Source: Terriglobales bacterium (GTDB lineage Bacteria; Acidobacteriota; Terriglobia; Terriglobales; Acidobacteriaceae). From it: a stretch of 41,329 nt of DNA. The notes beneath the pieces are model-generated. The model ran no database searches. It was not told where the DNA came from and saw only the letters and a program-made list of their open reading frames with translations. The position numbers and the translations under genes are program-made. Positions 5,096 through 35,814 of this stretch are shown here, in pieces. The stretch is from contig JAATFM010000309.1 of NCBI GenBank assembly GCA_015655195.1, forward strand, positions 1 through 41,329, in the 5' to 3' direction. Each line of letters begins with the position of its first letter. Position 1 is the first letter of the stretch.

Positions 5096-5149
5096 AGCAG
5101 ACCGGGACTTGCCAGAGGACATAATTGAATGTGCTTTGTAACAGGGCAC

Positions 5150-5222
5150 GGCTGGTAGGCCGGGGATTTATCCCGGGCAAAATAAGTCCAGCAGAATAAT
5201 TGGGGCTTTAGCTCCCGAGGGA
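5150..5222. repeat. Degenerate palindromic intergenic sequence between hscA and fdx
   Basis: ccgggga-ttta.tcccggg imperfect stem and ggggctttagctccc imperfect stem in a non-coding gap. Confidence 0.4.
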
Positions 5223-5244
5223 AAGCTGTTAGAAAGGCATCAGG

Positions 5245-5661: not shown

Positions 5662-5669
5662 ACGGATTT

Positions 5670-5709
5670 CCCACCCTAGCCGGAAAAACAAAGACCCGGC
5701 GAGGGTGGG
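5670..5709. repeat. Hairpin repeat between fdx and iscX (copy B of a dispersed family)
   Basis: cccaccctagccgg - aaaaacaaagac - ccggcgagggtggg (13/14 pairing), followed by ggcacccgaa. Confidence 0.8.
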
Positions 5710-5742
5710 GCACCCGAACTTTCGATCAAGAACGAGGACAGA

Positions 5743-5961
5743 ATGCCGCGCGAAATCTACTGGACGGACGCCGAAGAGATCGGGATTCAGTTGCAGGAGA
5801 AGTTCCCTGACCTCGATCCGCTGACGGTGCGGTTTACAGACCTGCACAAGCACGTGACGGAACTCGAAGGCTTCGCCGACGACCCGGCAAAGTCGAACGA
5901 GTCGAGGCTGGAGGCGATCCAGATGGCATGGCACGAGGAGCACGAGGACGCGAAAGGCTGA
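5743..5961 (+). CDS. iscX: Fe-S cluster assembly protein IscX
   Basis: IYWTDAEEIGIQLQEKFPDLDPLTVRFTDLHKHVTELEGFADDPAKSNESRLEAIQMAWHEE matches IscX pattern. Confidence 0.95.
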   Translation: MPREIYWTDAEEIGIQLQEKFPDLDPLTVRFTDLHKHVTELEGFADDPAKSNESRLEAIQMAWHEEHEDAKG

Positions 5962-5968
5962 CAGGCCG

Positions 5969-6403
5969 TTACAGAAACTCCACCGCAAAGCCAGCCAGCC
6001 GTGCAGCTTCGGCTAACCGCTGGTCTGCTGTGAGGAATCGGTAACCCTGCGGCGCATGTTCGCAAGCTTCTAACGCTGCGGCTAATTGCATCGCATCCGC
6101 GGCACGCAGCGGATGCTGTTCCAGCAGCGTGCAGGCGTGCTGCACAATCTGTTGTGACCAAAGCACAGGCGTCCAATCTGCTGCGAGTTGTTCTGCCTGC
6201 TGTTTGGCGTGGGAATAGCCATGTGCGGTAATGTGCGACATCCGTAATAGACGGGTTAGCGCGCTGACAATCTCCACTGGCGTTGCACACCAAACCACCA
6301 TGTCGTATCGATGAAAAAGCTGAAGGGCAGCCCTGCTGGCATTCTGTGTCGTGCAAAGCGGAACAATGACGCTTGTATCCCAGAACGCGGATTCTCTGCT
6401 CAC
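5969..6403 (-). CDS. PIN-domain toxin (VapC-like)
   Basis: AFWDTSVIVPLC start, LRAADAMQLAAALE and FLTADQRLAEAA C-terminal PIN acidic motifs; 4-nt overlap with upstream antitoxin. Confidence 0.88.
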   Translation of the reverse strand: MSRESAFWDTSVIVPLCTTQNASRAALQLFHRYDMVVWCATPVEIVSALTRLLRMSHITAHGYSHAKQQAEQLAADWTPVLWSQQIVQHACTLLEQHPLRAADAMQLAAALEACEHAPQGYRFLTADQRLAEAARLAGFAVEFL

Positions 6404-6693
6404 CTGTCAGCCCGCTCCTCTTCCCACACGCTGTCCATTACCTCGCGGGAAATCATCTTGCCCTTTGCGGGCTCCGGCTGGAAGCGCTTGCCGGTCTGGT
6501 TCTTCGGCGGCGCCAACACGCCTTTGGCAATCAGACGCCGCGTGCGTTCGCTGAGATCATCGTCCGGCGCGGCAGGCACAAGACGTGCCACAGGCGTGTT
6601 TCTGTCCAGAATCAGCACCTCTTCGCCACGCTTTACATACGCGATGTGCGCGCTGAGTTTTGCTTTGAGCTCGCTGATCTTTGCGGTTCGCAT
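6400..6693 (-). CDS. Phd/YefM-type antitoxin
   Basis: ISELKAKLSAHIAYVKRGEEVLILDRNTPVARLVP, typical Phd/YefM N-terminus; directly upstream of the PIN gene. Confidence 0.88.
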   Translation of the reverse strand: MRTAKISELKAKLSAHIAYVKRGEEVLILDRNTPVARLVPAAPDDDLSERTRRLIAKGVLAPPKNQTGKRFQPEPAKGKMISREVMDSVWEEERADR

Positions 6694-6709
6694 GAGTCGA
6701 TTCTAGCAG

Positions 6710-6730
6710 ACATGACCTACTTGGTCATGT
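6710..6730. promoter_or_regulatory. Palindromic putative operator upstream of the antitoxin gene
   Basis: acatgacc-tactt-ggtcatgt perfect 8-bp inverted repeat about 16 nt upstream of the antitoxin start (minus strand). Confidence 0.55.
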
Positions 6731-6768
6731 TCTCTGATTCCACCACTTGGGCGTAATGCGCTGCCTTT

Positions 6769-7257
6769 TTAGTAGCGGTCAAACCGCTCCTGCCAGCCAA
6801 AGGAATCCTGGAAGTGGTGGATTTGTGGCTCCTTGCCCGGAAGCAGATAAACGCTGATTACATCGAATCGGACTTGCGGCGGCACGGTTTGCGGCAGCTG
6901 GCGGAGATAGGCGCGGGCCAGGCGGCGCAGAACGTTGCGCTTGTGGGAATCGACGGCATGTTCGGCTGGTGTCATGTCGCGTGCGGTGCGGGCTTTCACT
7001 TCAAAGAAGCAGAGCAGCTCGCCCTGCCATGCGATAAGGTCTATGTCGCCGGGCACGTTGCCGGCAGCCCAGCGTCGCGCGACAACGGTATAGCCGGAGC
7101 GGAGCACATGGAAGAAGGCGGCGTCTTCGCCGCGCACTCCGGTGGCAAGGTGTTTGGGCTGGCTTTCACGGCGGCGTAGGCGGGCGAGTGCGTCAAGCGC
7201 GGAGATGGATCGCTCGATGGCGGCGGCGTGCAGGCGTGAGGGAAACATTGCTCCCAT
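6769..7257 (-). CDS. UPF0102/YraN-family putative endonuclease
   Basis: GVRGEDAAFFHVLRSGYTVVARRWAAGNVPGDIDLIAWQGELLCFFEVKAR matches the YraN family; internal start (MGAMFPSRLH) chosen, track start at 7401 runs through a repeat-like sequence. Confidence 0.85.
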   Translation of the reverse strand: MGAMFPSRLHAAAIERSISALDALARLRRRESQPKHLATGVRGEDAAFFHVLRSGYTVVARRWAAGNVPGDIDLIAWQGELLCFFEVKARTARDMTPAEHAVDSHKRNVLRRLARAYLRQLPQTVPPQVRFDVISVYLLPGKEPQIHHFQDSFGWQERFDRY

Positions 7258-7310
7258 TGTGAGGGGAGGCGGGCCGCGACGCAAGCGCAAATGAGTAATC
7301 TCACCCTGGT

Positions 7311-7400
7311 TCGTGCTATCCCACCCTTCCCCACCCCAGCGCACAAAAATCGCGCGCCGGGGACCCCGGTGTGGCAGAAAGAAGCCGCAAGGATGGGGCA
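7311..7400. repeat. Degenerate dispersed intergenic repeat (copy C)
   Basis: tcgtgctatcccacc shared with the repeat at 9176; reverse complement carries cgtgccccatcctt shared with 1793-1804; internal ccggggaccccgg palindrome. Confidence 0.5.
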
Positions 7401-7441
7401 CGGGGCAGAGTAGCCACGGAAGAAATGTTGAGGCAGGGAAG

Positions 7442-7777
7442 TTAGTCGGTCAGATCGACGACTTCGGCGCCGGCGGCGTCAGCCTTGACGACGGCAATGC
7501 CGTGGTCGCGCGACTCTTCGCTCTTGTAGCCCTGGCTGACGCCGATGATCTCGTGATTGGCCGCCTTGAGATGGAAGCGGAAGTGGCCGGCCTTGTCGGT
7601 GAGCGATTCGTAGTGCGCGTCGACCCCGGCATTCTTCTTGATGGATTCAATGCCGTGCACTGCCGAGGCCTTGGCCTTGTACATCTCGCTGGAGAGGATG
7701 ATTTCGCCGTTGCCGGCTTTGAGGTGGAAGTAGAACTCGTTGTCTTTAGCTTTCTTGATCTCGAACTTTGCGGACAT
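7442..7777 (-). CDS. YegP/DUF1508 family protein (two tandem repeats)
   Basis: KFEIKKAKDNEFYFHLKAGNGEIILSSEMYKAKASAVHGIESIKKNA and a second copy YESLTDKAGHFRFHLKAANHEIIGVSQGYKSEESRDHGIAVVKADA. Confidence 0.88.
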   Translation of the reverse strand: MSAKFEIKKAKDNEFYFHLKAGNGEIILSSEMYKAKASAVHGIESIKKNAGVDAHYESLTDKAGHFRFHLKAANHEIIGVSQGYKSEESRDHGIAVVKADAAGAEVVDLTD

Positions 7778-7934
7778 TTCTTACCTCGTGAATGGAAGGG
7801 TGGAAGGAAGCTGCAGGAGCAGTAACTGCCTCACGGGCGTCATGACCCTGCAGGTGGCATGAGTGGTGCGGCACCCCCTCGATTGCGGAAACTGGATTGT
7901 GGGAGTTGGATTGCCGCATGACGCAGGGCTGCGA

Positions 7935-8372
7935 TTAGAGAAGTTTGCCGAGGACGGACGAAAGCAACGAGCCTGTATCCGGCGCGGGAGTGTCGCCCGG
8001 CTGGCCGTCTGCGGTTACGTGGCCGTTTGAGATGCCGTGATTGATAAGCATCGGCAGGACGCTGCCGAGGCCGGACTTGATCTGGTCTGCGGAGAGACCG
8101 GTCCTGGCCGCTACGCCGTCGAGCACGCCGGAGCCGGCGAGCAGCGACTCGACCTGGTTGGGGTCGATGGCCGAGGTGTTGCCGCTGGCAATGTCCTGAA
8201 TGATGCCGCCGCCGCCGTTCTGCTGGAAGGTCTGGATGAGGCTGCCTAAGCCGGCGCTGCCGCCGATGTGATCGAGAAGTCCGCTTGCGACTGCGGACTG
8301 ATCTGCGCTGCTGCTATCGCCGCCGCCGGTAAATTCAGAGGCCAATTTCGTTACCGCGTCAAAGATACTCAT
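7935..8372 (-). CDS. DUF937/YidB-like protein
   Basis: Gly-rich N-terminus, VASGLLDHIGG..GLGSLIQTFQQNGGGGIIQDIASG and ARTGLSADQIKSGLGSVLPMLINH. Confidence 0.82.
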   Translation of the reverse strand: MSIFDAVTKLASEFTGGGDSSSADQSAVASGLLDHIGGSAGLGSLIQTFQQNGGGGIIQDIASGNTSAIDPNQVESLLAGSGVLDGVAARTGLSADQIKSGLGSVLPMLINHGISNGHVTADGQPGDTPAPDTGSLLSSVLGKLL

Positions 8373-8585
8373 GTGTCTCCCCTTGCGACACTTCGCTCGA
8401 ATCGCCGCAGGTGCAATATACCGTCAGATGGTTGGCGTCAAGACGAAGGTTGCACAGAATCCCCTGTATTTCTTTTGGCATACAGCACACGGGAATAATC
8501 GCGCATCAGAACGTGACAGTGTGGTACGATTCGGGCGCGGGCCGCGCGTGCAGGGCCTGCCCCCATTGAGGAAGGACAGGATTCA

Positions 8586-9104
8586 ATGAAAGGCAAATTG
8601 TTTCTGGCAGCGGCTCTCGGCATGGCCGTGACCCCGTGCGTGATGTTGGCGCAGGCTCCGGCAGGCGCAACAGGCAAGTGTAAGGATGGCACCTATACGA
8701 CGGCGGCAAGCAAGTCGGGCGCGTGCAGGGGCCACAAGGGCGTTGACACGTGGAACGGACCGACGGCAGCGGCGAAGAGCGCGACATCGAGCGCAATGAC
8801 GCCAGCGGCACCGGCCAAGCCGACAACGACTACAGCGGCTCCAGCTCCGGCCCCGGCAGCAAAGCCCGCTACTTCAGCTCCTGCGGCCAGCTCCGCGCCG
8901 AGCAAGTCCACGACATCTAAGACCACCAAGACGGCCGCTCCCGGCGGCGGTCCCGGCATGGTATGGGTCAACACCTCCACCAAGGTCTATCACTGCTACG
9001 GTACTGCGGACTACGGCACAACGAAGCAGGGCAAGTACCTGTCCGAAGCGGATGCGAAGGCGGCTGGCGCCCGCGCGGCGAAGGGGCAGGCCTGCTCGAA
9101 GTAA
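8586..9104 (+). CDS. Exported Ala/Pro-rich protein with DUF3761-like motif
   Basis: Signal peptide MKGKLFLAAALGMAVTPCVMLAQA, CKDGTYTTAASKSGACRGHKGVDTW, low-complexity linker, MVWVNTSTKVYHCYGTADYGTTKQGKYLSEADAKAAG. Confidence 0.78.
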   Translation: MKGKLFLAAALGMAVTPCVMLAQAPAGATGKCKDGTYTTAASKSGACRGHKGVDTWNGPTAAAKSATSSAMTPAAPAKPTTTTAAPAPAPAAKPATSAPAASSAPSKSTTSKTTKTAAPGGGPGMVWVNTSTKVYHCYGTADYGTTKQGKYLSEADAKAAGARAAKGQACSK

Positions 9105-9128
9105 ATTTCTCCCTGTAAGTGCACGAAC

Positions 9129-9166
9129 GACGACGGGCCGGAGCGATGATGCTCCGGCCCGTCGTC
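9129..9166. terminator. Strong hairpin, likely terminator
   Basis: gacgacgggccggagc-gatgat-gctccggcccgtcgtc, perfect 16-bp stem followed by attt, 24 nt after the stop at 9104. Confidence 0.7.
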
Positions 9167-9175
9167 ATTTGTGGC

Positions 9176-9233
9176 TCGTGCTATCCCACTCAAGGCGCCA
9201 AAACAAAGACGCGCCGTGGGTGGGGTACCCGAA
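9176..9233. repeat. Dispersed hairpin repeat (copy D)
   Basis: cccactcaaggcgc - caaaacaaagac - gcgccgtgggtggg followed by gtacccgaa; same loop and 3' flank as copy B. Confidence 0.75.
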
Positions 9234-9246
9234 GTGTATGGGGCAG

Positions 9247-10641
9247 CTATGCTCCAGCGGCGGTGAGTTCGCCCATGTGCGCGTGTTGCTTTTCAACCTC
9301 GGCGAGCGCCTCTTCCAGAATGTCGAGGGCGACGGTCGCTTCCTCTTCTTTCAGGATGAGCGGCGGGCAGAGGCGGATGGAGGTTTCTCCGCAGCCGAGG
9401 ATGAGAAGGCCGCGCTCGAAGGCCAGCTCTTCGATGCGGTTGCGGAGCGCGGTGACGGGCTCGCGGGTTGCTTTGTCTTTCACCAGCTCGATGCCGATCA
9501 TCAGGCCGCGGCCGCGAATATCGCCGACGAGCGGATGTGTCTCTTTCCAGCCTTCGAGGCGGGCCAGCATCTGCGCGCCGACCTTCGCGGCGTTGGCAAT
9601 GCCTTCGCGGTTGAGAATCTCAATAGTGGCGAGCGCGGCGGCAATGGAAACAGGGTTGCCGCCGAAGGTGGAGGCGTGCGAGCCGGGGAGCCAGTCCATG
9701 ATCTCGGCCTTCGACATGCAGATGCCGAGCGGCATTCCGCTGGCAATGCCCTTGGCGATGCAGACGATGTCAGGCTCGACGCCGGATTCCTCGATGGCCC
9801 ACCACTTGCCGGTCCTGCCTGCTCCGGACTGAACCTCGTCCGCGACGAGCAGAATGCCGTGGCGGTCGCAGATGGCGCGCAACTCGTGGAGGAAGTTGGC
9901 CGGTGCGGGAACGTAGCCGCCCTCACCCTGGATGGGTTCGACGAAGATGGCGGCGACCTCTTCGGGCGCGAGCGTGGTCTTGAAGAGCTTGTCCTCGATG
10001 TAGCGGGCGCAATTCAGAGCCCACTGCTCCTGCGCGGTTGGGTCGGCTGGTCCGTTGCGATAAACGTAAGGGTAAGGAATGTGCGTTACGCCAGGGACGA
10101 GCGGGGCGAAGCGGCGCTTCTGCTGCGGCTTGGACGCGGTGAGCGAGAGCGCGCCCATGGTGCGGCCGTGGAAGGCTCCGTAGAAGGCGATGACCTGCTG
10201 GCGCTTGGTATGGTAGCGGGCCAGCTTGAGCGCGCACTCGACGGCCTCGGCGCCGGAGTTGCCATAGAAGAACTTGTGCGGGCCGGGCATGGGAGCTACG
10301 GCGGTAAGCTTGGCGGCGAGATTGGTGAGGTTTTCGTCGTAAAAGTCGGTGCCGGAGATGTGAATCAGCTCGGCGGCCTGTTTCTGGATGGCGGCGACAA
10401 CTTCGGGATGACAATGGCCGGTCGAGTTGACGGCGATGCCGGCGGCGAAGTCGAGGAACTCGTTGCCGTCGGAGTCCGTGACGCGGATGCCGCGTCCGCT
10501 CTTGGCTACGAGCGGGTAGGAGCGGGTGTAGCTGGGCGAAATGAGGCGGGAGTCTGCCTCAACGGCGGCGCGAGCCTTTGGGCCGGGGAGCGTTGTGACG
10601 AGCTTTGGGCCGAATTGCGAGTGGAGTTCCTGCTTTGTCAT
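9247..10641 (-). CDS. Acetylornithine/4-aminobutyrate-type class III aminotransferase
   Basis: FFYGNSGAEAVECALKLAR, FHGRTMGALSLTASK, LLVADEVQSGAGRTGKWWAIE, GIASGMPLG, STFGGNPVSIAAALATI. Confidence 0.92.
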   Translation of the reverse strand: MTKQELHSQFGPKLVTTLPGPKARAAVEADSRLISPSYTRSYPLVAKSGRGIRVTDSDGNEFLDFAAGIAVNSTGHCHPEVVAAIQKQAAELIHISGTDFYDENLTNLAAKLTAVAPMPGPHKFFYGNSGAEAVECALKLARYHTKRQQVIAFYGAFHGRTMGALSLTASKPQQKRRFAPLVPGVTHIPYPYVYRNGPADPTAQEQWALNCARYIEDKLFKTTLAPEEVAAIFVEPIQGEGGYVPAPANFLHELRAICDRHGILLVADEVQSGAGRTGKWWAIEESGVEPDIVCIAKGIASGMPLGICMSKAEIMDWLPGSHASTFGGNPVSIAAALATIEILNREGIANAAKVGAQMLARLEGWKETHPLVGDIRGRGLMIGIELVKDKATREPVTALRNRIEELAFERGLLILGCGETSIRLCPPLILKEEEATVALDILEEALAEVEKQHAHMGELTAAGA

Positions 10642-10982
10642 CTTCTTTTGTCCTCTCTCGTGGGCGGGACCGGCGCTGCTCTTAATTGGATGGGGCAGCG
10701 CTGCCCCGGCGGATGCGGGATGGATTCGGCGCGGCTCTTGGGTGAGACGCGAATCCGTAGACGCAGACGAGGATCTTCGGCGGACCCTGAAGCTTAATCG
10801 CCGCCGAAGAGGCTAGGTCGGGTACGGGTGGGAAGCACGCGGAGATGACGGCGCGGTCGCACAGGCTCGCCGGCCCCGGATGTAGCGGCGGGGATGAACG
10901 GCAGAGCGGCAATGGCGCGATTGCTCATGGTTCCTGTTGGGGGAAGGATAACACGAGACAGAGACCCGATGCGGCTTGTGGG

Positions 10983-11525
10983 CTAGAAGGGAAAGAGCGA
11001 TTCGGATTCCGGGCGGACGCGGAGGATGCGGGCGCGTGGACGCGGGGCACGCGTGTCCGGCACTGGCTCCGGACTGGCGAGCATGGTGAGAATCTCGCGC
11101 AGCTCGGCGCGGGCGCGGCCGATGGCGGCGGTGACGGCCTGATCTGTTCCGGCTTGGCCGGAACCGGCATGATTGACGCCGGACTGTTGCATGGTCGCAA
11201 CAGGAGCAGGTGCGGGAACCGGCGCGATGCGGGAGGGCTGTGGGCGCGGGCCGGATTCCAGCACCTGTTTGGCGCCGGCGATGGTGTAGCCCTCGCGATG
11301 GACGAGGCGCTTGATTTCGAGTGCCAGCTCGACCTCACGGCGGCGATAGAGACGCTGACCGGTGCCGCCCTTGTTGGGCTTGAGCTGCGGAAACTGCGTC
11401 TCCCAGAAGCGCAGGACGTAGGTTTCCACGCCGCAGATGCGGGCCACGTCGCCGATCTTGAAGTAGAGGCGGTCGGGGATGACGGGAGCTTCGGGGGCGG
11501 CGAGTTTTTTTAATGCTTGAGCCAT
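10983..11525 (-). CDS. MerR-family transcriptional regulator
   Basis: YFKIGDVARICGVETYVLRFWETQFPQLKPNKGGTGQRLYRRREVELALEIKRLVHREGYTIAGAKQVL. Confidence 0.9.
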   Translation of the reverse strand: MAQALKKLAAPEAPVIPDRLYFKIGDVARICGVETYVLRFWETQFPQLKPNKGGTGQRLYRRREVELALEIKRLVHREGYTIAGAKQVLESGPRPQPSRIAPVPAPAPVATMQQSGVNHAGSGQAGTDQAVTAAIGRARAELREILTMLASPEPVPDTRAPRPRARILRVRPESESLFPF

Positions 11526-11687
11526 CTATAAATCGCGCGTTGTTCGAGACGCTGCGCTGGTTTCAGTGTAGGACAGGGCTTGCGTGAGGATGGAAGCTGT
11601 TTTCCCGAAAAGGAACCAAGTTAGAGACTAGGGGCGAAGGACTAGGGACGAACGCTGGGTGCGCGGCCCGGCCTCTACAATAGAAGA

Positions 11688-12605
11688 GTGATGGATGCGG
11701 GCATGAGTCTGGTGCAGATTGAGCCGGCGCGGAAGACTCCGGCGCCCAAGCCGGAGTGGCTGAAGGCGCGTGCGCCGCTGGGCGAAAACTTTCATAGCCT
11801 CAAGCGGCTGGCGCGGTCGTTGAACCTGCACACGGTCTGCGAGAGCGCGCAGTGCCCGAACATCGGCGAGTGCTGGAACCACAAGACAGCAACTTTTATG
11901 ATGCTCGGCAACCTGTGCACACGGCGCTGCGGCTTCTGCGCGGTGCCGAAGGGAAGGCCGGAGCCGATCGATTTTGACGAGCCGAGGCGAGTGGCCGAGG
12001 CCGTGGCGGCGTTGGGACTTCAGTTTGCCGTGATTACCAGCGTGAATCGAGACGACGATCTCGTCGGCGGTGCGCGTGCCTTTGCGATGGTGATCGAGGA
12101 GATTCGCCGACAGGCTCCGGGCTGCGGCGTCGAGGTGTTGATTCCCGACTTTCAGGGCAACCGGGAGGCGATTCGCGCGGTGGTGGAGGCGAAGCCCGAG
12201 ATTCTCGACCATAATACGGAGTCCGTGCCGCGGCTCTACCGCGTGGTGCGCTCCGGTGCGCGCTACGAGCGCACGCTGGAGCTGCTGCGCTATGCGAAGG
12301 AGCTGAGGCCCGATGGGCTTACGAAATCCGGCGTGATGGTGGGCATCGGCGAGGAGACGCACGAGCTACTAGATGTCTTCCGCGATCTCGCAAGTGTGAG
12401 CTGCGACATTCTCACCATCGGGCAGTACCTGCGCCCTTCGCGGAACCACTTGCCGATGGCGCGCCTCTACACGCCGCGCGAGTTTGCCGAACTGAAGACC
12501 GAAGCCCTCAAGATGGGCTTCCGGCACGTGGAGAGCGGCCCGCTTGTCCGCAGCAGCTACCACGCGCACGAGCAGGCGGAGTCGAGCGGGTTTGTCAGAG
12601 TTTAG
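11688..12605 (+). CDS. lipA: Lipoyl synthase (start may be GTG 11688, ATG 11691 or ATG 11703)
   Basis: CESAQCPNIGECWN, CTRRCGFCAVPKGRP (radical SAM CxxxCxxC), VITSVNRDDDLVGGA, GPLVRSSYHAHEQ. Confidence 0.96.
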   Translation: MMDAGMSLVQIEPARKTPAPKPEWLKARAPLGENFHSLKRLARSLNLHTVCESAQCPNIGECWNHKTATFMMLGNLCTRRCGFCAVPKGRPEPIDFDEPRRVAEAVAALGLQFAVITSVNRDDDLVGGARAFAMVIEEIRRQAPGCGVEVLIPDFQGNREAIRAVVEAKPEILDHNTESVPRLYRVVRSGARYERTLELLRYAKELRPDGLTKSGVMVGIGEETHELLDVFRDLASVSCDILTIGQYLRPSRNHLPMARLYTPREFAELKTEALKMGFRHVESGPLVRSSYHAHEQAESSGFVRV

Positions 12606-12842
12606 AAATTAACGAGAAACATCAATAATTAATTTTGGGATCATCTCCCAGTAGTGCCGGCTCCGAGCCGTCACCCACCTGCCTGCGCGCCCCCGCGCAA
12701 ATTGTCACAAATGCAAAAGAGATAAGGTACGTTCGCGCTATGGCCCGATATGCGGTCTGCCATAGGCGCAATCGTCTTTGTGAAATGACGGTTACTTTGC
12801 TTGAGATAAGAATTTTGCCTGCGTATATGAAGATGAAGCCCC

Positions 12843-15710
12843 ATGCGCCTGATCCGATCCAACAACGCGTCGCGCGAAAGCGAATCCCTGACTCCAGCCA
12901 GTCTCTTCGAGGCGAAGTACGACTGGCTGATGCGCTGGGCCATGCACTTTGCGCAGAACGACCGTGCTGCCGCGGAGGATCTGGTACAGGATGCCTTTGT
13001 GCGGTTGATGAACTCCTGGCCCCGCATTAAAGACAGCATTCTCGAATCCGAACCGGTTCTGTATTCGTATCTCCGGTACGCCTATCTGACCGAGATACGG
13101 CGTGGCCGCCGGTTCAAAATCGAGCAGCTCGCCCTCATTGAATTCGATGACGTGCGCCTGAGCCTCAAAGAAGAGAGAACCAGCGATCCCATCGAAGTGC
13201 AGGATGACCTGCGCCGCATCGTGGCCTACCTGTGCTGGCGCAAGCGATCGGCGAAGTCCGCCAGCATCTTGCTGCTGCGCTTCTTTCACGGATATTTCGT
13301 GGAGGAGATTACGCGGATTGCGGTGAGCAGGCGCGGTGTTGTGGATGAGCTGCTGCGAACTGCCCGCGAAGAAGTGAAAGCCTATCTTGCCGATCCCTCC
13401 CGCGTGGAGATCATGCGTTTAGGCAAGCCGCCGGAAGTGATGCCGCGCCAGGTTGCCGTGCCCGAGGAACGCTTTGCCGAGGAGCTGCGGCACACCATCT
13501 TCGAGGCGCGTACCGGGCTTTGCCTGGACCGCAATCTGTGGATGCGGCATTACGGGGTGAGTGAGCCGAAACCGGTTCCATGTGAGCTGTTGGCGCATAT
13601 TGTGAGTTGCGAGCGTTGTCTGGAAGCAGTGCATTCCGGCAACGGCCTGCCGCCGCTGGCGCAGCGTTCGCAGGATGGAATCTTTGGCGTCAAGCGCCGC
13701 GCGCATCGTGCATCTGGCCCTATCGCTCCTGCCACAAAGGAAGAGATCCGCCGCTCCATCGCCGGCGGCATGGAACGCTTTCGCCAGCTCTACGAGCACC
13801 ATCCCCGCGGCTTGATGGTCGTGGTCAATGGCGATGTGCTGGCGATGCGCGATGTGAATTCCGCAACGAGTGAGCTGAAGGTCCAGGTCGGCTCGGAAAA
13901 GACGCTGGATATTGTCGAAGTGGTGAGCGAACAGAACATTCCGCTCCTCACTCTGTATGTTGCCTCGGTGCCGCTCGAAGCTTCGCCCGAACAGTGCCAG
14001 GAAGTCGCCCTGAGCGATGACCGCAAGCTGGAGCTGCGGCTGCGGTATACCGGCGAAGGCGCGGTGATCGAGGTCCACTATAACGATCCCACATTTCTGC
14101 TGGCGGCTGGCGGGGCAACGGCAATGGATTCCGGGCCGGAGGACGCTGAGGCTTTTACTGATAGTACCGTCGCAGTCGATGTACGGCCGCGCCGCCGTTC
14201 CTGGTGGAGGCGGTTCCTGGACCGTGCGACTTCGATGGAACTGCCCGAGATGAATCCCATGCTGGCGACGGCCATGCTCTGTGCGATGGCCGCAGTTGTT
14301 TTCCTCATCCTGTCCCTTCGTACTTCTTCGGTAATGAAGGCCGACGAACTGTTGCGGCGTGCCGCCACCTCGGAGAATGCGCTGGCGCAATCCGGCGCGA
14401 ATGGCGTCGTCGTACAGGGCGTCCGCATTCAGACACCGCGGCTCAAGGTGGAACGCACACTCTACCGCGACGTGCAGGGCAAACGTCGCCTGAAGGACAG
14501 AAAGCTGAGCCAGGAGGATGCTTCGCTCCGTGCAGAGCTGGAAGCTCTCGGTATTTCCTGGAATGATCCGCTATCGGCAGACTCCTTCCGCGACTGGTAC
14601 GACCATGCCAGCGTGTTGCGGGACGTGGTAAGGCGCCCCGAAAAAGGGCTGCTGACTCTGATCGCGACGATGGCCGAGGGCAGCATCGCGAAGGAGTCGT
14701 TGACCGTGCGTGAAGCCGATTTCCATCCGGTAGAGAGAACGGTTGAGCTGCGCAATGCGGGGACGGTCGAGATTGCGGAGCTGAACTACAGCGTCCTGCC
14801 CTGGAGCTCCGTCAATCCCGATCTGTTCGAGGCTGTTTCCGATGTGGGGCCAGTGTCTGGAAAGAACCTTCATGCCTCGGTTCTTCCGCATCTCCCGCGT
14901 CTGCTCAGCCCTGTCGAGATCGATGAAGCGGAGCTGGGCGCACGGCTTGTACTCAATCGTTTGCATCTGGACGCCAATGACCGCCTTGAAGTGGTCCGCC
15001 AGCCTGGGGGCGTGCGTGTGCAGGGAGTTGTGGAGAACAGCGAGGAGAAGCATCAGCTTCAGGCGCAGCTCTACATGGTGTCCAATGTGTCGGCTTCTAT
15101 TCAGACTATTCAGGAGATGGCTGCGCGGCCAGCCGCGGCGTCGGATGTCACTTCCATCCGGCAAAGTTCCGCTGCTGCGGTGCCGGAGCTATCCGCTCTT
15201 GAGCAATACTTTGCGCAGCGCGGCATGGACCGGACAGCCGCGGGCGTATCGGTGCAGGAATTTGTCCTGAGCTCGTTCACGGTGAAGCGTCAGAGCGAGC
15301 AGATTGCCGAATTGATGAACCGCTTTTCGTCCAGCGTGACTCTTTCCGATGAGGCTCGGACGGAATTGAGCGAGCTGCTGATTCAGCACAAGGCTGCATT
15401 GCTGGATGCGCTCGGGCGAGAGGATCGCCAGCTCACAGCCTTGCAGTTGATTCCGCACTCAGTCACTGCAGCAAGGGAAAACCTTCCCGGCAATGCGGAG
15501 ATGCTGCACGGAATCGCGGAGCATAACGTTGCCCTTTGTGCGGAGTTGATTTCCGAGGGCAATCCTTCTCCCCGCTCCGCACAGGAAATTGCGCCTCAGC
15601 TTGCGGACTCCATCGCGCAATTGCGCGCGGTAGTGCTTCAAATTTCAGCCGCGGCTCAGCTTTATACGCCTTCATCCGGCAGCCCTGCAACCACAAACCA
15701 GAACAAATAG
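12843..15710 (+). CDS. ECF-type sigma-70 domain fused to ZAS-like HxxxCxxC motif, one TM helix and a large C-terminal domain
   Basis: Sigma region 2-like WAMHFAQNDRAAAEDLVQDAFVRLMNSWP, region 4-like segment, LLAHIVSCERCLEAV, TM MLATAMLCAMAAVVFLILSL, then about 460 aa C-terminal region. Confidence 0.75.
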   Translation: MRLIRSNNASRESESLTPASLFEAKYDWLMRWAMHFAQNDRAAAEDLVQDAFVRLMNSWPRIKDSILESEPVLYSYLRYAYLTEIRRGRRFKIEQLALIEFDDVRLSLKEERTSDPIEVQDDLRRIVAYLCWRKRSAKSASILLLRFFHGYFVEEITRIAVSRRGVVDELLRTAREEVKAYLADPSRVEIMRLGKPPEVMPRQVAVPEERFAEELRHTIFEARTGLCLDRNLWMRHYGVSEPKPVPCELLAHIVSCERCLEAVHSGNGLPPLAQRSQDGIFGVKRRAHRASGPIAPATKEEIRRSIAGGMERFRQLYEHHPRGLMVVVNGDVLAMRDVNSATSELKVQVGSEKTLDIVEVVSEQNIPLLTLYVASVPLEASPEQCQEVALSDDRKLELRLRYTGEGAVIEVHYNDPTFLLAAGGATAMDSGPEDAEAFTDSTVAVDVRPRRRSWWRRFLDRATSMELPEMNPMLATAMLCAMAAVVFLILSLRTSSVMKADELLRRAATSENALAQSGANGVVVQGVRIQTPRLKVERTLYRDVQGKRRLKDRKLSQEDASLRAELEALGISWNDPLSADSFRDWYDHASVLRDVVRRPEKGLLTLIATMAEGSIAKESLTVREADFHPVERTVELRNAGTVEIAELNYSVLPWSSVNPDLFEAVSDVGPVSGKNLHASVLPHLPRLLSPVEIDEAELGARLVLNRLHLDANDRLEVVRQPGGVRVQGVVENSEEKHQLQAQLYMVSNVSASIQTIQEMAARPAAASDVTSIRQSSAAAVPELSALEQYFAQRGMDRTAAGVSVQEFVLSSFTVKRQSEQIAELMNRFSSSVTLSDEARTELSELLIQHKAALLDALGREDRQLTALQLIPHSVTAARENLPGNAEMLHGIAEHNVALCAELISEGNPSPRSAQEIAPQLADSIAQLRAVVLQISAAAQLYTPSSGSPATTNQNK

Positions 15711-15723
15711 GAAGCCACACTAC

Positions 15724-18700
15724 ATGTACCGATTGATGTTGCGATTCCTGGCCTGTGTCGTCCTTATCACTTCCGCAATCTCCGCCTATGGACAGACGGC
15801 GCGCTTTTCCGGTCAGGTGACGGATCAGCAAAATGCCGCCATTCCTAATGCCGAGGTGCATGTCTTCAACCTCGATACCTCCGCGCGAACAGACGCGAAA
15901 ACCGATGGCAGCGGCAACTATGTGGTCTCGTATCTGAGTGCCGGACGCTACCGCGTTGAAGTCAGAGCCGCCGGTTTCAATACCGTTGTCAGCGACAATC
16001 TTGTACTGTCGGCAGGCGAGGCGCACATCCTGAATATCCAGCTCGGCGTCGCGGCTGCGCAGTCTACCGTGAACGTGAATGCCAACAATGAAGTAACGCA
16101 GGTCAATACGCAGAATGCGGAAGTGAGCGGCACGGTGACGCAGAAAGAAGTTACCGGGCTGCAACTTAATGGACGCAACTTTACGCAGTTGATTGCGCTT
16201 ACTCCCGGCGTCAGCAATCAGACGCAGCAGGACGAGGCCAGGGTCGGCGTGCTGGGAAGTGTGTCGTACTCCGTGAATGGCGGCCGCACCGAGTACAACA
16301 GCTTCAATGTGGACGGCTCGGAGACCTTGAATGTCGGCATCAACAAGGATCACACGGCGCTGATTGTTACGCCGAGTGTCGATGCCATTCAGGAAATCAA
16401 GGTGCTGACATCGAACTATGGCTCGCAATATCCGAGCACCGGTAACGGCACCACGATTGTTACGACCAGATCAGGCACGGATGAGTATCACGGCAATCTG
16501 TACGAGTTCGTGCGAAATGAGCTGTTTAATTCCAAAGGGTATTTTGATGTGACGAACGGCGCGCCGCTCTATCGCAGGAACGATTTCGGAGGAACGATTG
16601 GCGGGCCGCTTTCCATTCCGCATCTGTACGACGCGAGAGGGAGAACGCACTTCTTCTTCTCCGAGGAAATGCGCCTGGAGAAAGACCCATATGCCTATCG
16701 GCAGGCTGTGCCATCGCTGGCGGAGAGAAACGGCGACTTCAGCGATGTATGCGCTACGGATGTTGCCGGTGGACAGACTGCCGCGAATACGCAGGACTGT
16801 CCTTCGGTGGAAGGAGTCTTCTACATCGGCACTCAGGAATTCAGGGATCTGGCGCCGAATATCGGTCCAATCTCGCCTTACGCCCGCGCAATCCTCAACA
16901 CCGGCATTCTGCCCGCGCCGAATTCTTATACCGGATGCAATGCCGGTCCATACCCTACCGGCTCGTGCTACCTGACAGATGTTTCGCTGCCCACGTACTA
17001 CCGCGAGGAGTTGTTTCACATCGACCATGCGTTCAGCCAGAAGACGCATGCCAGCTTTCGTTACATCCACGATGAATGGGATACGACCACCGCGATTCCG
17101 CAATTCACCTCGACGACAAACAGCTTTCCTACAATTCAGAATCGCTTCTATGGGCCGGGCCTGAGCCTGGTCGGCCGTGTGGCAACTGCCTTCAGTCCGA
17201 CCTTTGTCAACGAGTTTGTTGTGGGCTATACGGACTCCCATATCACGCTCGCGGATATGCCCGCGCCGTATGTTTCTCTTGAGCGTCCGAAAATTCTGGA
17301 TGATCCTCCATGCAGCACCGGCGGCGACGGTTGCGGCATGGGCTCGATCTTCCCCAACAGCAACAATGCTGGCGTCAATGGAGTTCCGAAGATGCCGGGA
17401 ATTGTTTTCGGCGGCAACAACGCCGAGTATGGCGGTTACGGCTTTACTCTCGACACCAGCTACGAGCCGTGGGAGCACAGCAACCCCATCTACAGCTTTG
17501 CGGACAATATCTCCAAGGCAATTGGGAAGCACAATCTCACCTTCGGCGCGCAGTGGGTCATCTTTCAGCGGAGCCAGGTCAACGGGCCGAGCGGAGCCGC
17601 TACCGGCAATGTGCAGGGACTGCTGACTTACAGCAACGAGCAGTCGGTGAACACAACGGGCAATGCCTTTGCCGATTTTCTTATCGCTTCCGGTGCGGCA
17701 AATACTGGGTTGGTAACCAGCGGAGGTTTTCCCGCCAGCTTTCAGCAGGACAGCGGGCAGGCAAAGTATTACCAGCGCTATCAGATTGCGGAGCCGTATT
17801 TTCAGGACGACTGGAAGGTTACTTCGCGCCTGACAATCAACGCGGGCTTGCGAGTCAGTCTCTTCGGAACGTATCACGAGAAGAATCACAGCGCCTATAA
17901 CTGGGTTCCGAACAACTTTGATCTGAGCCTTGCGAGAACGGTGAAGGTTGCCAACTCCGGTGAGTTGCTATCCGCTTCTACCGGGATAGCGGAGCCGATC
18001 TACGAGATGGATCGCAGCGTGAATCCCGCTGTGATAAACGGGCTGGTGCAGTGCGGCATGAATGGCGTTCCCGATGGCTGCATGAGCGGGCATATGTGGA
18101 ATCCCGCTCCGCGGGTCGGCTTTGCATGGGACCCATTTGGGAACGGCAAGAATTCGATTCGCGCCGGTTATGGCATCTTTTTCGAACACGGTACTTCGGA
18201 CGAGGCCAATACCGGCTCGCTGGAAGGCAGCGCGCCGATCATTCTGACCATGTCGCAGCTCAATCCGCTGGGCGTGGGCTGCATCGGAAATGCCGCAACG
18301 GGCTGTCCCGGGGCGGGACCGGGCGCGTATCCGCTGAACGTTACTTCCATTCCGACAAAGGCGGTCTGGTCGAACGTGCAGCAGTGGAGCTTGAGCGTGG
18401 AGCATGAATTGCCTCGCAATGTGCTCGCCAGCTTCGCGTATGTGGGCAGCAAAGGCACGCACCTGACGGCGGAGAGCGAGGCCAACCAGCTCAACCCGGT
18501 TCCTGCGGGAACCACTCCATTCGCGCCGCACGAGCCGCTGCTGGGCTCTACCTGCATGAGCGGGTGGGATGGCTACTCCTACCATCTGCCGAGCGGGACT
18601 GTGGTTGGCCCGTCCAGTCCGGGCTTCATCAATATGGAGGCAGCCTGCTTCGGGTATGGAGGAAAAATCGGAGGAGGCACAGTCGATCCTGCGGCGCTGC

Positions 18701-19680
18701 GCGAATATGCGCCGGGCATAGGACAGATTTATTCGCTGCAAAACATTGCCAATTCCGCGTACAACGCATTTCAGGCTTCTTTGCGAGAGGTTTCAGGACC
18801 GTTCACTTTCGGCGTGGCCTATACCTACAGCCATTCCATCGACGATGCCTCCGACCGCTCGGACGCTACCTTCGTCAACTCTTTCGACATCAAAGGGAAT
18901 CGCGCCAGCTCCACCTTCGACCAGCGGCACCTGCTGCACATCAGCTATCTCTACAATCTGCCGCTGCGCCAGGCGATCCAGCACTTCCTGGGAAACATCA
19001 ACAGTAACCCGGACCCGGAGGCTCATGCCGCCAATCGTTCTTCCTCCAGCTATTTGACTTCGCGTGTTTTCGGTGCGCTTCTCGATAATTGGCAACTCTC
19101 AGGCATCACGCTCTTCGAGTCCGGCATTCCGTTCACAGTTGTGAACGGCGGCAGCGGGACCGGGCCAAACGGCGTCTCGACGCTTGACAACGCCGGCGTT
19201 TACAACGGGCTGGGATCAGGCTCTTATCCCGATCGGGTTACCGGTGTATCGCTGCACGGCAATATCCCGAAGGTTGCAGGCACCGGGTCGAGTGTTGGTC
19301 CGCTGCTTCTCAATCCCGCAGCATTCGCCGCGCCGCAGGGATTGACCTTTGGCAATGCCGGACGCAACTCGCTGAACAATCCTCACCGGCTGAACTTCGA
19401 TACGGCACTGCAAAAGAACTTTTCCGTTACGGAGCGCGCTCATTTCGAATTTCGCGCGGAAGCCTTCAACGTCTTCAACGTTACGCAGTTCCGCATTTAT
19501 GACCCGACGCTGGGAAACCAGCCGGAGAACACCGCAAGTTGCTACTCCGCTTCGGAGACGAGCGGATACTCCGCGGCGGGTGATGAAACCACGAATTGTT
19601 TGAGTGGCGCATCCTTCCTGCACCCGGTGGACGCGCACCGCCCACGCACGATTCAGTTCGGTTTGAAGCTTGCCTTCTGA
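15724..19680 (+). CDS. TonB-dependent receptor-like outer-membrane protein with N-terminal carboxypeptidase-regulatory-like domain
   Basis: Signal peptide, ARFSGQVTDQQNAAIPNAEVHVFN, plug-like LNGRNFTQLIALTPGVSNQ.., GTNEYHG-like GTDEYHGNLYEFVRNELFNSKGYFD, barrel repeats, C-terminus RTIQFGLKLAF ending in aromatic. Confidence 0.88.
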   Translation: MYRLMLRFLACVVLITSAISAYGQTARFSGQVTDQQNAAIPNAEVHVFNLDTSARTDAKTDGSGNYVVSYLSAGRYRVEVRAAGFNTVVSDNLVLSAGEAHILNIQLGVAAAQSTVNVNANNEVTQVNTQNAEVSGTVTQKEVTGLQLNGRNFTQLIALTPGVSNQTQQDEARVGVLGSVSYSVNGGRTEYNSFNVDGSETLNVGINKDHTALIVTPSVDAIQEIKVLTSNYGSQYPSTGNGTTIVTTRSGTDEYHGNLYEFVRNELFNSKGYFDVTNGAPLYRRNDFGGTIGGPLSIPHLYDARGRTHFFFSEEMRLEKDPYAYRQAVPSLAERNGDFSDVCATDVAGGQTAANTQDCPSVEGVFYIGTQEFRDLAPNIGPISPYARAILNTGILPAPNSYTGCNAGPYPTGSCYLTDVSLPTYYREELFHIDHAFSQKTHASFRYIHDEWDTTTAIPQFTSTTNSFPTIQNRFYGPGLSLVGRVATAFSPTFVNEFVVGYTDSHITLADMPAPYVSLERPKILDDPPCSTGGDGCGMGSIFPNSNNAGVNGVPKMPGIVFGGNNAEYGGYGFTLDTSYEPWEHSNPIYSFADNISKAIGKHNLTFGAQWVIFQRSQVNGPSGAATGNVQGLLTYSNEQSVNTTGNAFADFLIASGAANTGLVTSGGFPASFQQDSGQAKYYQRYQIAEPYFQDDWKVTSRLTINAGLRVSLFGTYHEKNHSAYNWVPNNFDLSLARTVKVANSGELLSASTGIAEPIYEMDRSVNPAVINGLVQCGMNGVPDGCMSGHMWNPAPRVGFAWDPFGNGKNSIRAGYGIFFEHGTSDEANTGSLEGSAPIILTMSQLNPLGVGCIGNAATGCPGAGPGAYPLNVTSIPTKAVWSNVQQWSLSVEHELPRNVLASFAYVGSKGTHLTAESEANQLNPVPAGTTPFAPHEPLLGSTCMSGWDGYSYHLPSGTVVGPSSPGFINMEAACFGYGGKIGGGTVDPAALREYAPGIGQIYSLQNIANSAYNAFQASLREVSGPFTFGVAYTYSHSIDDASDRSDATFVNSFDIKGNRASSTFDQRHLLHISYLYNLPLRQAIQHFLGNINSNPDPEAHAANRSSSSYLTSRVFGALLDNWQLSGITLFESGIPFTVVNGGSGTGPNGVSTLDNAGVYNGLGSGSYPDRVTGVSLHGNIPKVAGTGSSVGPLLLNPAAFAAPQGLTFGNAGRNSLNNPHRLNFDTALQKNFSVTERAHFEFRAEAFNVFNVTQFRIYDPTLGNQPENTASCYSASETSGYSAAGDETTNCLSGASFLHPVDAHRPRTIQFGLKLAF

Positions 19681-19717
19681 TCCGGACCGGAACTCAGGCC
19701 AGGAAACGAGATTTGAG

Positions 19718-21178
19718 ATGAGAGAAGAGACGATGCAACGAGTAGCGCAGAGAGCGACGAATCAACTTCCCCTGATCGGGATGCTGTTGTTGGCCTTCAC
19801 CACAGGTTGTGCTGGCGGTGGCAACTCAGGCGGCAACACGGCGGTCCCGCCCGCGGGAACGCAGAACACGAAGTCCTATATCTACGCGGGCACGCAGAGC
19901 GCAGACGGCTACGATAACTTCCCCTATGGCCTGCGCTTCGGTTATGGCGGCGCATGGACTTCGAGCCAGGATGATACGAGCAGTTACTTCACCTATCAGA
20001 ACGACGGCCACGACGGCTACCAGGGAGCGAGTGCAATCCTTACCGGGCCGAACAGCGAAGTGATTCTGCCCTACGACGATCCTGTTACCGGGAGTTATGC
20101 GGGCAGCGGGTTTTTCACGCTGACTCCCGTTGTTGCCGGAGCGCCTCCGGGGAGTGGCGGCTATGCCGTGGAGCTGCCGGGCGAGGGCCAGTTGCTGCGT
20201 CCGGATACCGAGACCCCTATCGGCGGCGAATCAGGCGAGGATGCGCTGAATCCAAGCTCCCCGATGGTGGGTCCGGTGATTTCGGCGTCGAGCGCGGTGT
20301 GCCCCAGTCTGAAGGGAAACGTAACTTTTCAGTTCATTGCGCTTGGCTCGCAGTTCGCGCAGGACCTGATCGAGCATGTGGTCTACGGCAGTGTGCAGAT
20401 CAGCGGCTCGGGCACGAACTTCACCTTCTCCAACCTGAACATGTACGGATTTGCGGAAGACTCGCTCTCGCCTGACCCGTGGCCGGCAGGGGCCTGCGGC
20501 ACCACCCAGGCAGGCTACGTCATCAGCAGCAACGCGACGGAACAGATATACGCGGAAGGGAACTTTGCAGAAAGCGGTCCCTCTACTGGCGTCTACCCGC
20601 TCACCACCGCGATCAGCCCCTCCGGCCTCTTTGTGATGGATCAAGGCCAGGGGTCGCCATATTTCGCCAATGATCTGCCCGGTGCGACCAGCATGTTGGG
20701 TTTGGTGGGAGTGCAACAACCGGCCAGCGCGCTCGACACCGGCAACGTGGTCGGCGCGAAGTATCTCGGCTTTGAATATGACGCGCTGGATGTTGGTTTA
20801 GCCCACAATGCTTCCAATCCTGTCTCGTTCAGCCAGGGATCGGGAACGACGATGACCGGCGGAGGCTACGCGAACGACGATGTGACGCAGACGCCGGCAA
20901 CTAACATCTCCATCGACCTTGGCCAGCAGGACTCATCCAACAACGGTTTGTACAAAAACGTAACGGTGATAGTGCCGGATACCTACCAGGGCTGCATCAA
21001 TGAACCTTTTGGCGGCACGGATGCAAACGGCAACCCGACCTGCACTTTTTCCGGTGTTGCCGTGGCGGGAAACGTGGCGGGGAAGTTTGTGCTCTTTGTT
21101 TCCGTCAACGATTTAAGCCAGGTAATCAGCCATTATTCGCCATATGCGACTCTTCAGTTTTTCCTGTATCAGCAGTAA
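19718..21178 (+). CDS. Putative exported lipoprotein of unknown function (start could also be 19733)
   Basis: Hydrophobic N-terminus ending LLLAFTTGCAGGGNSGG; no family recognised; co-directional after the receptor gene. Confidence 0.7.
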   Translation: MREETMQRVAQRATNQLPLIGMLLLAFTTGCAGGGNSGGNTAVPPAGTQNTKSYIYAGTQSADGYDNFPYGLRFGYGGAWTSSQDDTSSYFTYQNDGHDGYQGASAILTGPNSEVILPYDDPVTGSYAGSGFFTLTPVVAGAPPGSGGYAVELPGEGQLLRPDTETPIGGESGEDALNPSSPMVGPVISASSAVCPSLKGNVTFQFIALGSQFAQDLIEHVVYGSVQISGSGTNFTFSNLNMYGFAEDSLSPDPWPAGACGTTQAGYVISSNATEQIYAEGNFAESGPSTGVYPLTTAISPSGLFVMDQGQGSPYFANDLPGATSMLGLVGVQQPASALDTGNVVGAKYLGFEYDALDVGLAHNASNPVSFSQGSGTTMTGGGYANDDVTQTPATNISIDLGQQDSSNNGLYKNVTVIVPDTYQGCINEPFGGTDANGNPTCTFSGVAVAGNVAGKFVLFVSVNDLSQVISHYSPYATLQFFLYQQ

Positions 21179-21260
21179 TTCTCACGCGATGCGCTGCCCA
21201 TGGGCGGCAGGCGGGGTAAGAACGACGATGTATCTGTTTTCTGAATTTGAGAGGGGCTTT

Positions 21261-24200
21261 ATGTCGCAACAAGGTGGTTCGATTCGCGCTTCGTGGAATC
21301 GGGTGGTTCTCTTAATTCTGACTGTCTTTGCGCTTGCGGGATTTGCGGACGCGCAGAACCTTGCGTTCCAGCCCGGCGTATCTTCCGCGTATGCGGGCGA
21401 TCCAACGCAAACAAACGCCACAAGCGTCTCCGGCGCCTCTTTTACGGGAGTGCCTACCAGTCTCGTGCTGGGACGGCAGCCAGGCTCGGTGGCCTTTGAC
21501 GCGGCCGGGAACTTCTACATCATGGATGCGGGAAATAGTATCGTGCGCGTAGTGGCGGCGAGCAATAACCCTATTCCAACGTTGCCCGGAGTTACAGTGC
21601 AGGCGGGGCACGTCTATACCGTCGCCGGCACCACGAATCAACCGGGCACCAGCCCTCCGTGCAGCGCCACCGGCGCGGATGTCTATGGCAATGGCTGCCC
21701 CGCCACCGTGGCCAGTGTTTCCGGACCCTTCCTCGCCGTCGATGGGAACAGCAATGTCTATGTCGCGGCGAACTATGGGAGCCAGGTGCGCGTCGTTTAC
21801 GGAGGAAAGGGCACACTGCAAGGGATCAGCAACCCGCAGCAGGGGTATATCTATGCGCTGACGAACGCATCCAATTCGGATTCGCAGACTGACGGCACAA
21901 GCGGCCCCGCTGTGAATGCCGTCACGCCCAATATCACTGCAATGACGACCGACACCTATGGCAATGTCTACATCTTTGACGGCGGCTCATACGAGCTTCT
22001 GCTGGTTTATCAAGGTGGAAACCTGCCACCGGGCTTTTTCAATGGAGCTACACCGGTTCCGGGCAACATTTACCTGTTGACCGATGATGAACATTCCTGC
22101 ACCGACACGACGAATCTCTGTAATGGACAACCGATTGCGCAGGTTTACTACAACGGTATTGGCATGATGTCGACGGATGCTTCCGGCAATCTCTATATCG
22201 ATGACAATGAAGACAGCGAGATACGCGCGGTCTACGTGGCGGGTACGCTAAATGGCGTGACCGATCCGGTTCCGGGCAATATCTATGCGGTCGCGGGCAA
22301 TGGAAGCAATGGGCCTCCCGTCAATGGCAGCCAGGCGACTGCTTCGTCCCTGAGTCTGCCCTATCAGGGCGGCGGAATCGCCGTTGACAGCATCGGGGAA
22401 TTGTACTTCACGGGCAGCCTGTCCGGGGGCTCGGAAGGCATCTATAAGGTCGATACTTCGGGAGTGTTGACGACCGTGTTTGGTGGAAGTGCTCCCTGCA
22501 CCACGGCCACGGATCCGCTGAACGATGGTTGCATCGCAACTGCTGTAAATACCGCCGCATTTTATGGCCTCGTCGTTGATAGCACAGGCAATCTTTACGG
22601 ATCGGACTATAACTTTGGCCCGAGTGTGATCCTCAAGTCCACGGTGTCGACGACAACGATCGATTATTCCGGCACCATTGGCCTTTCCTCTCAGAGCCAG
22701 ACGATAGCGGTCGCGAATACGGGAACTCAAGCTCTCCAATTCAGCAATCTTGCCTTTACCGGACCGTTCAACCAGGTGTTGACGGGATCGAACGATTGCT
22801 CCAACTCCACGTCTCTGGCCAGCGGAGAAAGCTGCCAGATCGGCGTCAGCTTTCTGCCGACAGCGGCGGGAACGGTTGCCGGAACCATCACCATATCCAG
22901 CAATGCGCTCGATGCGACCAACGGCTCGAACGTCGTTGTCCTGAACGGAGTAGCCGCGCAGGCAAGCAGCACAACGTATCTTGCCATATCTCCCAGCGCT
23001 CCGGCAGTTGCCAATGTGGGCCAGCAGGTGACCTTCAGCGCGACCGTGGAGCCGCTGATTGGCGATTCGCTGATTCCCAGCGGCACCGTTGCCTTTATGA
23101 ACGGGGCAACACAACTGGGGACAGGAACCATTACGAATGGCGTGGCTACCTTTACTACTAGCAGCCTTGCGGCGGGCACATACCCGGTCACCGCGGTTTA
23201 CAGCGGCGACGCCAACTTTCTTACCAGCACGTCCACTCCCGTCGGTCTGACTGTTTCCACCACTCCGGCTGCGATCATCACCCTCACCTCATCGGCCACC
23301 ACGGCGAATAGCGGCCAGAGCGTTACGTTGACTGCGACCGCTGCCGCATTCTCCGGAACAGGCGTGCCAACCGGCACGATCACCTTTCAGGATGGCGGAA
23401 ATCTGCTGCCCAACAGCACTGTAACGTTGAGCGGAGGCACGGCGGTTCTGAACACGACCGCGCTGCCCCCTGGAAACAACGAGCTGATCGCGGTCTATAA
23501 CGGCGACAGCAACTTTGCCGCAAATGCGTCTGCCGACCTACTGGTGAATGTGACTGCTTCCGGGCAGTTGCAGTTCACTCCCGGAGTAATCTCGCTGGTT
23601 ACGGGAAGCTACTTTACTCCGACGAATACCTCCGGCGGTGTCATTGCCACTGACAGCTATGACAACGTCTATTTCATTGCCACCAATGGGGCGCTCGCCT
23701 ACAATGGGCAGCTCGATGTGATTGCTTCGGGCAACGGAGCGATTCCCGGCGTGACCAATCCGGTAAGTGGGACTCTGTATACGATTGGGACAGGCACGGC
23801 TTGCCCTGGCACTCCGGCCGCACCCTGCGGAGACGGCGGCCCGGTGGCCCAGGCGTCCTTTGCCAGCTTAAGCTACCTGGCGGTGGATGCGCTCAACAAC
23901 ATCTATGTTGTCGATAAAGGTGTCATCCGCAAGATCTCCGCGGCAACGGGAACGATCAACACCGTAGCCGGAGTGTGGGGCACCACCGCCTATCCGGATA
24001 CGGGCTATAGCGGAGACAACGGACCCGCAACCAGCGCTCAGATTAGTGTCGCCGGTCTCTTTGTGGACCAGAACGGCAATATTTATTTTGCTGACAATGC
24101 CGATGTGCTCGTCCGCAGAGTGGATGGGCAGTCCGGCATCATCACGACAGTCGCCGGAACCACCGCTGGGGCGGGAACTTCGACAAATCGGGGGCCTGCC

Positions 24201-35652: not shown

Positions 35653-35814
35653 TGATGCGGGCGCATGGGGCAGCGAGCCGGCAGGAATTTCTGCTATGCG
35701 AGCCGCACCCACGGAATGCAACTGGATGCGCGGGGTAAGGTTCTCGCTTCCACTGGCCCGCTGCCGGAGAGACGACGGAAAGCGGAAGAAAAATCTTTCG
35801 AGAGAGATACGGGA

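Follow-up and report, generated by a model that had tools for sequence, protein, structure and literature searches.

Domain layout of the fused reading frame

The window, the whole 41,329-nt stretch of DNA analyzed here, derives from a soil bacterium of the Acidobacteriota, a phylum to which its protein complement, with many CarboxypepD_reg/OMP receptors and giant Ig/NHL proteins, also points. On its forward strand, which carries all window features described below, lies an ORF at 12843–15710 that starts with ATG, is free of internal stops and encodes a protein of 955 aa in which sigma, anti-sigma, transmembrane (TM) and sensor parts follow one another in a single chain. In total, 48 homologous fusion ORFs were gathered, most of them encoding proteins of 923–1027 aa.

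The N terminus was assigned to an extracytoplasmic function (ECF) sigma factor, in agreement with the original prediction. Sigma region 2 (aa 18–90, 12894–13112) was matched by the Pfam model Sigma70_r2 (PF04542) at aa 21–90 with an E value of 3e-8, above the Pfam cut-off, and the NCBIfam model TIGR02937 (sigma70-ECF) covered aa 20–181 with a score just under its own cut-off (E 1e-10, 41.2 versus 42.9 bits). Region 4 (aa 116–183, 13188–13391) is divergent. A Pfam search with the window protein alone gave no match to sigma-70 region 4, and the assignment draws on the TIGR02937 match, which reaches aa 181, on predicted helices and on the relatives, 5 of 20 of which matched PF08281; region 2 was matched in 18 of the same 20. 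An AlphaFold2 model of aa 1–427, built with 20 relatives (mean pLDDT 83.6, pTM 0.82), contained sigma-2 helices at 18–87, sigma-4 helices at 116–183, anti-sigma helices at 208–280 and eight strands at 323–414. Using this cytoplasmic model, Foldseek retrieved ECF sigma factors, some of them in RNA polymerase or anti-sigma complexes (best E 0.03).

The divergence of sigma-4 and the missing Pfam region-4 match could also mean that the sigma part is inactive and that the protein serves as an anti-sigma factor or decoy for other ECF sigmas. The region 2 and region 4 matches among the relatives argue against this, as do the conservation of sigma residues across large divergence in the alignment of relatives and the retention of sigma and anti-sigma as a pair in the split locus L172 (see below), and we regard an inactive sigma as highly unlikely.

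The sigma part is followed by a putative ZAS-type anti-sigma domain (aa 208–280, 13464–13682) with a full Cys/His ligand set, consisting of C227, H252, C256 and C259. The HxxxCxxC signature lies exactly where it had been predicted (HIVSCERC, aa 252–259, 13596–13619) and is present once per protein in 48 of 48 fusion proteins, compared to a chance expectation of ~0.002 per protein. When seven relatives were aligned, 36 columns were invariant, and these include the H and both C residues of the signature. The fourth ligand, C227, is located 25 residues upstream of the signature (C227-x24-HxxxCxxC), and the complete tetrad is invariant in a 26-sequence alignment. The Pfam model zf-HC2 (PF13490) was not matched by the window protein or by any of 20 fusion relatives; it was matched above cut-off by the split homologues L014, L079 and L088. 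Both the zf-HC2 and the region-4 assignments of the window protein are therefore made because its relatives carry those matches, and since the protein itself falls below both Pfam models, promoter recognition by its sigma-4 domain may be unusual.

The beta-rich cytoplasmic region of the original prediction corresponds to a small eight-stranded beta domain of no known family, here termed MID (aa 305–420, 13755–14102), with the modeled strands spanning aa 323–414. No sequence relative of MID was found in Pfam or the PDB, and a PDB sequence search with ZAS and MID together was empty. At 7678–8067 of locus L109 (G078), a stand-alone ORF carries the MID beta-domain only and is probably a fusion remnant.

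The window protein has a single TM helix (aa 471–493, 14253–14321; Kyte–Doolittle 2.55), with a counterpart at the equivalent position in 43 of 45 relatives. It is the only strong hydrophobic segment of the chain, with a start near aa 474, and is followed by 462 aa, matching the single helix and ~460 aa outside that had been predicted. The AlphaFold2 model of aa 494–955 (pLDDT 87) has three parts, an alpha/beta domain followed by an alpha-beta-beta-alpha-beta domain and then a helical bundle, the placement of which relative to one another is uncertain given a pTM of 0.57. The first of these (aa 500–652, 14340–14798; mean pLDDT 87) is LolA/RseB-like, as Foldseek matched the sensor model to LolA (8cgm, E 6e-6; 4mxt, E 4e-5) and, at lower significance, to MucB (6in9, E 0.03). 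The Foldseek output came without a query range, and the LolA match was placed on this domain by size and topology; TM-scores of ~0.4–0.55, normalized to the best LolA targets, justify the term LolA-like fold but not a LolA function. The second domain (aa 690–755, 14910–15107) is BON-like, judging from its AlphaFold2 secondary structure, weak matches of the Bon-like Pfam model in two relatives and the presence of the BON proteins OsmY and DolP among the Foldseek matches of the sensor model. The C-terminal helical bundle of the AlphaFold2 model extends over aa 785–939 (15195–15659). Searched by sequence against the PDB, the sensor returned low-significance matches only, mostly to helical chains, and Pfam FecR was not matched by the window protein or by 32 sensors.

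Distribution of the fusion and its split relatives

Among the 398 genomes of the window's family, 31 carry the fusion, representing 14 of its 79 genera, and two further members belong to other families of the phylum (G914 and G977). In a phylum-wide sample, the module of ZAS and beta-domain was matched in 10 of 347 genomes, one of the matches being marginal, which points to a patchy distribution. The window genome is a 327-contig assembly, and the original prediction had allowed that a frameshift or an assembly artefact might have joined two genes. All 48 fusions, however, share one domain order, and several of them are encoded in single-contig genomes such as G173, G324 and G390. We therefore reject a sequencing or assembly artefact, the probability of which is negligible. 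Neither of the two outcomes that the original prediction had named as counting against it, a failure of the sigma region 2 and 4 profiles to match and an artefactual fusion, was observed. The window's own genome holds further members, followed by receptor genes resembling that of the window, and several different cassettes can be found in one genome. A search for plasmid matches returned none. In locus L104 (G420, 3412–9435), the cassette is decaying, with the fusion gene and the receptor gene each broken into several ORFs, and the two look as if they were lost together.

Two natural splits indicate how the chain is composed. In locus L172 of G1011, a genome from another family, a 458-aa protein has the ZAS domain at its N terminus, followed by the beta-domain and a hydrophobic, TM-like stretch; it was aligned to the fusion profile with an hhalign probability of 98.9%. 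The next gene, 29 nt after this one, encodes a sigma factor of the same subgroup (195 aa, E 1e-35). In the window's own genome, locus L014 (8235–10765) carries a separate ECF sigma gene and then an anti-sigma gene of the zf-HC2/TM/sensor type, the 588-aa product of which has one TM segment and shares 36% identity with the window protein across 483 aa of TM and sensor. Split relatives of the L014 type thus have a TM and sensor homologous to those of the fusion, and many of their loci have the same kind of receptor downstream, but their sigma and anti-sigma are separate genes and the MID beta-domain is absent. On this comparative sequence basis, L172 and L014 strengthen the ZAS reading and indicate that the window protein is a fused sigma/anti-sigma pair, so that the original prediction is supported in its overall interpretation. 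In L172 (9752–12727), the place of the receptor after the split pair is taken by a large protein that was assigned by eye as a TPR protein with a CHAT-like C terminus.

The sensor was found in 61 of 399 genomes of the class, mostly in ORFs of ~500–750 aa. A tree of 62 sensors required four changes between the fused and split states, three of which are forced by well-supported branches. Sensors therefore moved between fused and split proteins, or fusions came apart, on more than one occasion. Since the sigma factor and its inhibitor are fused in some species and separately encoded in others, the family offers a natural experiment on both sigma/anti-sigma fusion and the exchange of sensors. At five split loci (L014, L079, L081, L083 and L084), the sensor is followed by a secreted Ig/NHL-type protein of ~1310–1320 aa in the place of the receptor. 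More broadly, six split cassettes (L014 at 10783–14748, L079 and L081–L084) encode a homologous large secreted protein of ~1310–1390 aa near the anti-sigma gene.

Receptor genes and other cassette neighbors

The gene that begins 13 nt downstream of the fusion ORF (15724–19680) encodes an outer-membrane receptor of 1318 aa with CarboxypepD_reg and an OMP_b-brl_4 barrel and without an STN domain. The synteny of sigma fusion and TonB-type receptor that the original prediction had proposed to look for was universal wherever it could be checked: each locus that extends beyond the fusion gene continues directly, and in the same orientation, with a gene for a CarboxypepD_reg/OMP_b-brl_4 receptor, usually at a distance of −4 to 70 nt. 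The receptor was found automatically in 43 of the 48 loci. In L144 and L146, the receptor start was merely over-extended; in L018, L104 and L140, the fusion gene is broken or shortened and receptor sequence lies behind it. Locus L167, the sequence of which ends 24 nt downstream, was left out of the receptor count, and two further loci (L173 and L174) also have a receptor downstream. With 81 matches to the OMP_b-brl_4 barrel family in the 4.76-Mb window genome (G000), a receptor neighbor would be expected by chance at ~1–2 percent per gene, a figure to be read with the loci being related and not independent trials. At least five receptors of this genome sit behind such switches. An STN domain was absent from the eleven receptors scanned, comprising the window receptor and ten other cassette receptors, and none was found above cut-off in the window genome. 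A receptor-to-sensor contact of the Pseudomonas type can therefore not be assumed.

What the sensor responds to may be read in two ways. RseB/MucB, which has a LolA-like fold, controls anti-sigma factor proteolysis, and the LolA, LolB and MucB folds are the best structural matches of the sensor. These likenesses, together with receptors that have no signaling domain and with the five split loci that pair the sensor with a secreted Ig/NHL-type protein and not with a receptor, are consistent with a one-chain version of Sigma-E/RseA/RseB, in which the LolA/RseB-like and BON domains would sense envelope or lipoprotein stress directly and the receptor would merely be a regulated output. Each fusion adjoins its own receptor, however, and several different cassettes per genome fit receptor-specific input better than one general stress, which makes direct stress sensing rather doubtful in our view. 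The other reading is a one-polypeptide, trans-envelope switch that reads an STN-less CarboxypepD_reg receptor, is distinct from FecA/FecR and is reused within a genome. We put this forward tentatively, with less than even confidence; if true, it would represent a cell-surface signaling route distinct from FecA/FecR and used repeatedly per genome for different receptors.

The third cassette gene in this subtype is a lipoprotein-like ORF of 502 aa (19670–21178), which has homologues in 11 other cassette loci by phmmer and matches no Pfam family. The region after the window receptor (19670–27209) contains this gene and one for a 2021-aa Ig/MBG/NHL protein. Further downstream (32047–39465) are two large Big_3_5 ORFs, one with FG-GAP and dockerin-like matches and the other a sedolisin-like protease carrying a pro-kumamolisin activation domain.

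Known systems and a proposed switch

ECF factors with C-terminal extensions and a TM helix are known elsewhere, as the original prediction stated, and two precedents make the fused architecture an already known kind. In Pseudomonas putida, IutY is a sigma/anti-sigma hybrid that works with a receptor and from which the sigma is released by Prc and RseP (PMC5411451). IutY (PP2192, ECF243; TonB-dependent transducer IutA) and the window protein share a layout, with an N-terminal sigma, one TM helix and a periplasmic anti-sigma/sensor part in one chain adjoining a TonB-type receptor. IutY, however, has 374 aa and a CSS-type (FecR-like) periplasmic part, whereas the window protein has 955 aa, a ZAS domain, an extra beta-domain, a sensor composed of LolA/RseB-like, BON and helical parts, and STN-less receptors. 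Actinobacterial ECF48, ECF52 (SCO4117) and ECF53 also combine sigma, zinc-finger anti-sigma, TM and extracytoplasmic part in one chain (PMC8999054). As proteins of Actinobacteria they have no such outer-membrane receptor partner, their sensor domains are different and their reported extensions reach ~400 residues compared to ~770 in the window protein.

In Sigma-E/RseA/RseB (AlgU/MucA/MucB), an ECF sigma is likewise combined with a membrane-spanning anti-sigma and a periplasmic regulator of LolA-like fold. Three genes encode these parts there, whereas the window protein is one polypeptide, with ZAS Cys/His ligands and, in addition, a BON-like domain and the C-terminal helical bundle. Where RseB has a C-terminal small domain, the LolA-like domain of the window protein is followed by these two additional parts. 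An adjacent receptor gene, as in FecI/FecR/FecA, was found at all assessable loci; membership in FecI/FecR/FecA signaling was nevertheless rejected, as the receptors lack STN and the sensor is LolA/BON-like with no FecR match. The STN–STN contact shown for FoxA/FoxR (PMC11637429) contrasts with the STN-less receptors of the window family.

A literature search found no description of this architecture for Acidobacteriota; the main ECF reclassification (NAR 2021) was outside its scope, and a numbered ECF group may exist. What is new here is a fusion built on a ZAS domain and paired with an outer-membrane receptor, with a LolA/RseB-like and BON sensor on the same chain, as well as the uncharacterized beta-domain, the several copies per genome and the STN-less receptors. 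The LolA/RseB-like and BON-like sensor, the split relatives and the IutY and ECF48/52/53 precedents go beyond the original prediction. As the RseB-like sensor is part of the anti-sigma chain here, sensing can be tested with a single protein.

We consider it probable that the ECF sigma, translated in one chain with a membrane-bound ZAS anti-sigma and sensor, is autoinhibited, proteolytically released, receptor-linked and self-activating. All four properties, namely autoinhibition, proteolytic release, the receptor as signal source and autoregulation, are ones that we infer. At rest, the ZAS domain, with MID, would fold back on the sigma and, together with the TM anchor, bar it from RNA polymerase. 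Upon signal, a change in the LolA/RseB-like and BON region would expose a site to a periplasmic protease; this change would most likely be coupled to the state of the outer-membrane receptor whose gene lies just downstream. An RseP-type site-2 protease would then cut in the membrane and free the cytoplasmic sigma fragment. Such release by regulated intramembrane proteolysis is likely. The genome encodes an RseP-type M50 protease (E 3e-62) and S41 proteases, the presence of which adds little weight as their homologues were near-universal in controls. The sigma could instead work tethered and uncleaved, with a ligand-driven rearrangement of ZAS and MID freeing sigma-2 and sigma-4. The linkers that flank the ZAS domain and precede the TM helix, long and variable in alignments of relatives, would be compatible with tethered action; the proteolytic release of IutY, a characterized hybrid (PMC5411451), argues for cleavage, and we judge the tethered alternative distinctly unlikely.

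In the proteolytic model, the freed sigma would transcribe its own cassette and yield more receptor in a positive feedback. A promoter-like element, GAAA-N18-AGATA, is located at 12782–12808, 34 nt before the start codon of the fusion gene. The generalized form GAAW-N18-AGATW was found upstream of 7 of the 48 fusion genes, window included, compared to 0.29 expected from Markov shuffles; as the motif was seen before being tested, this post hoc count is suggestive only, and we denote the element a candidate autoregulated ECF promoter. In these seven cassettes, the element sits 19–41 nt before the start codon. A spacing of 18 gave seven loci, compared to 0–3 for the other spacings from 10 to 25.
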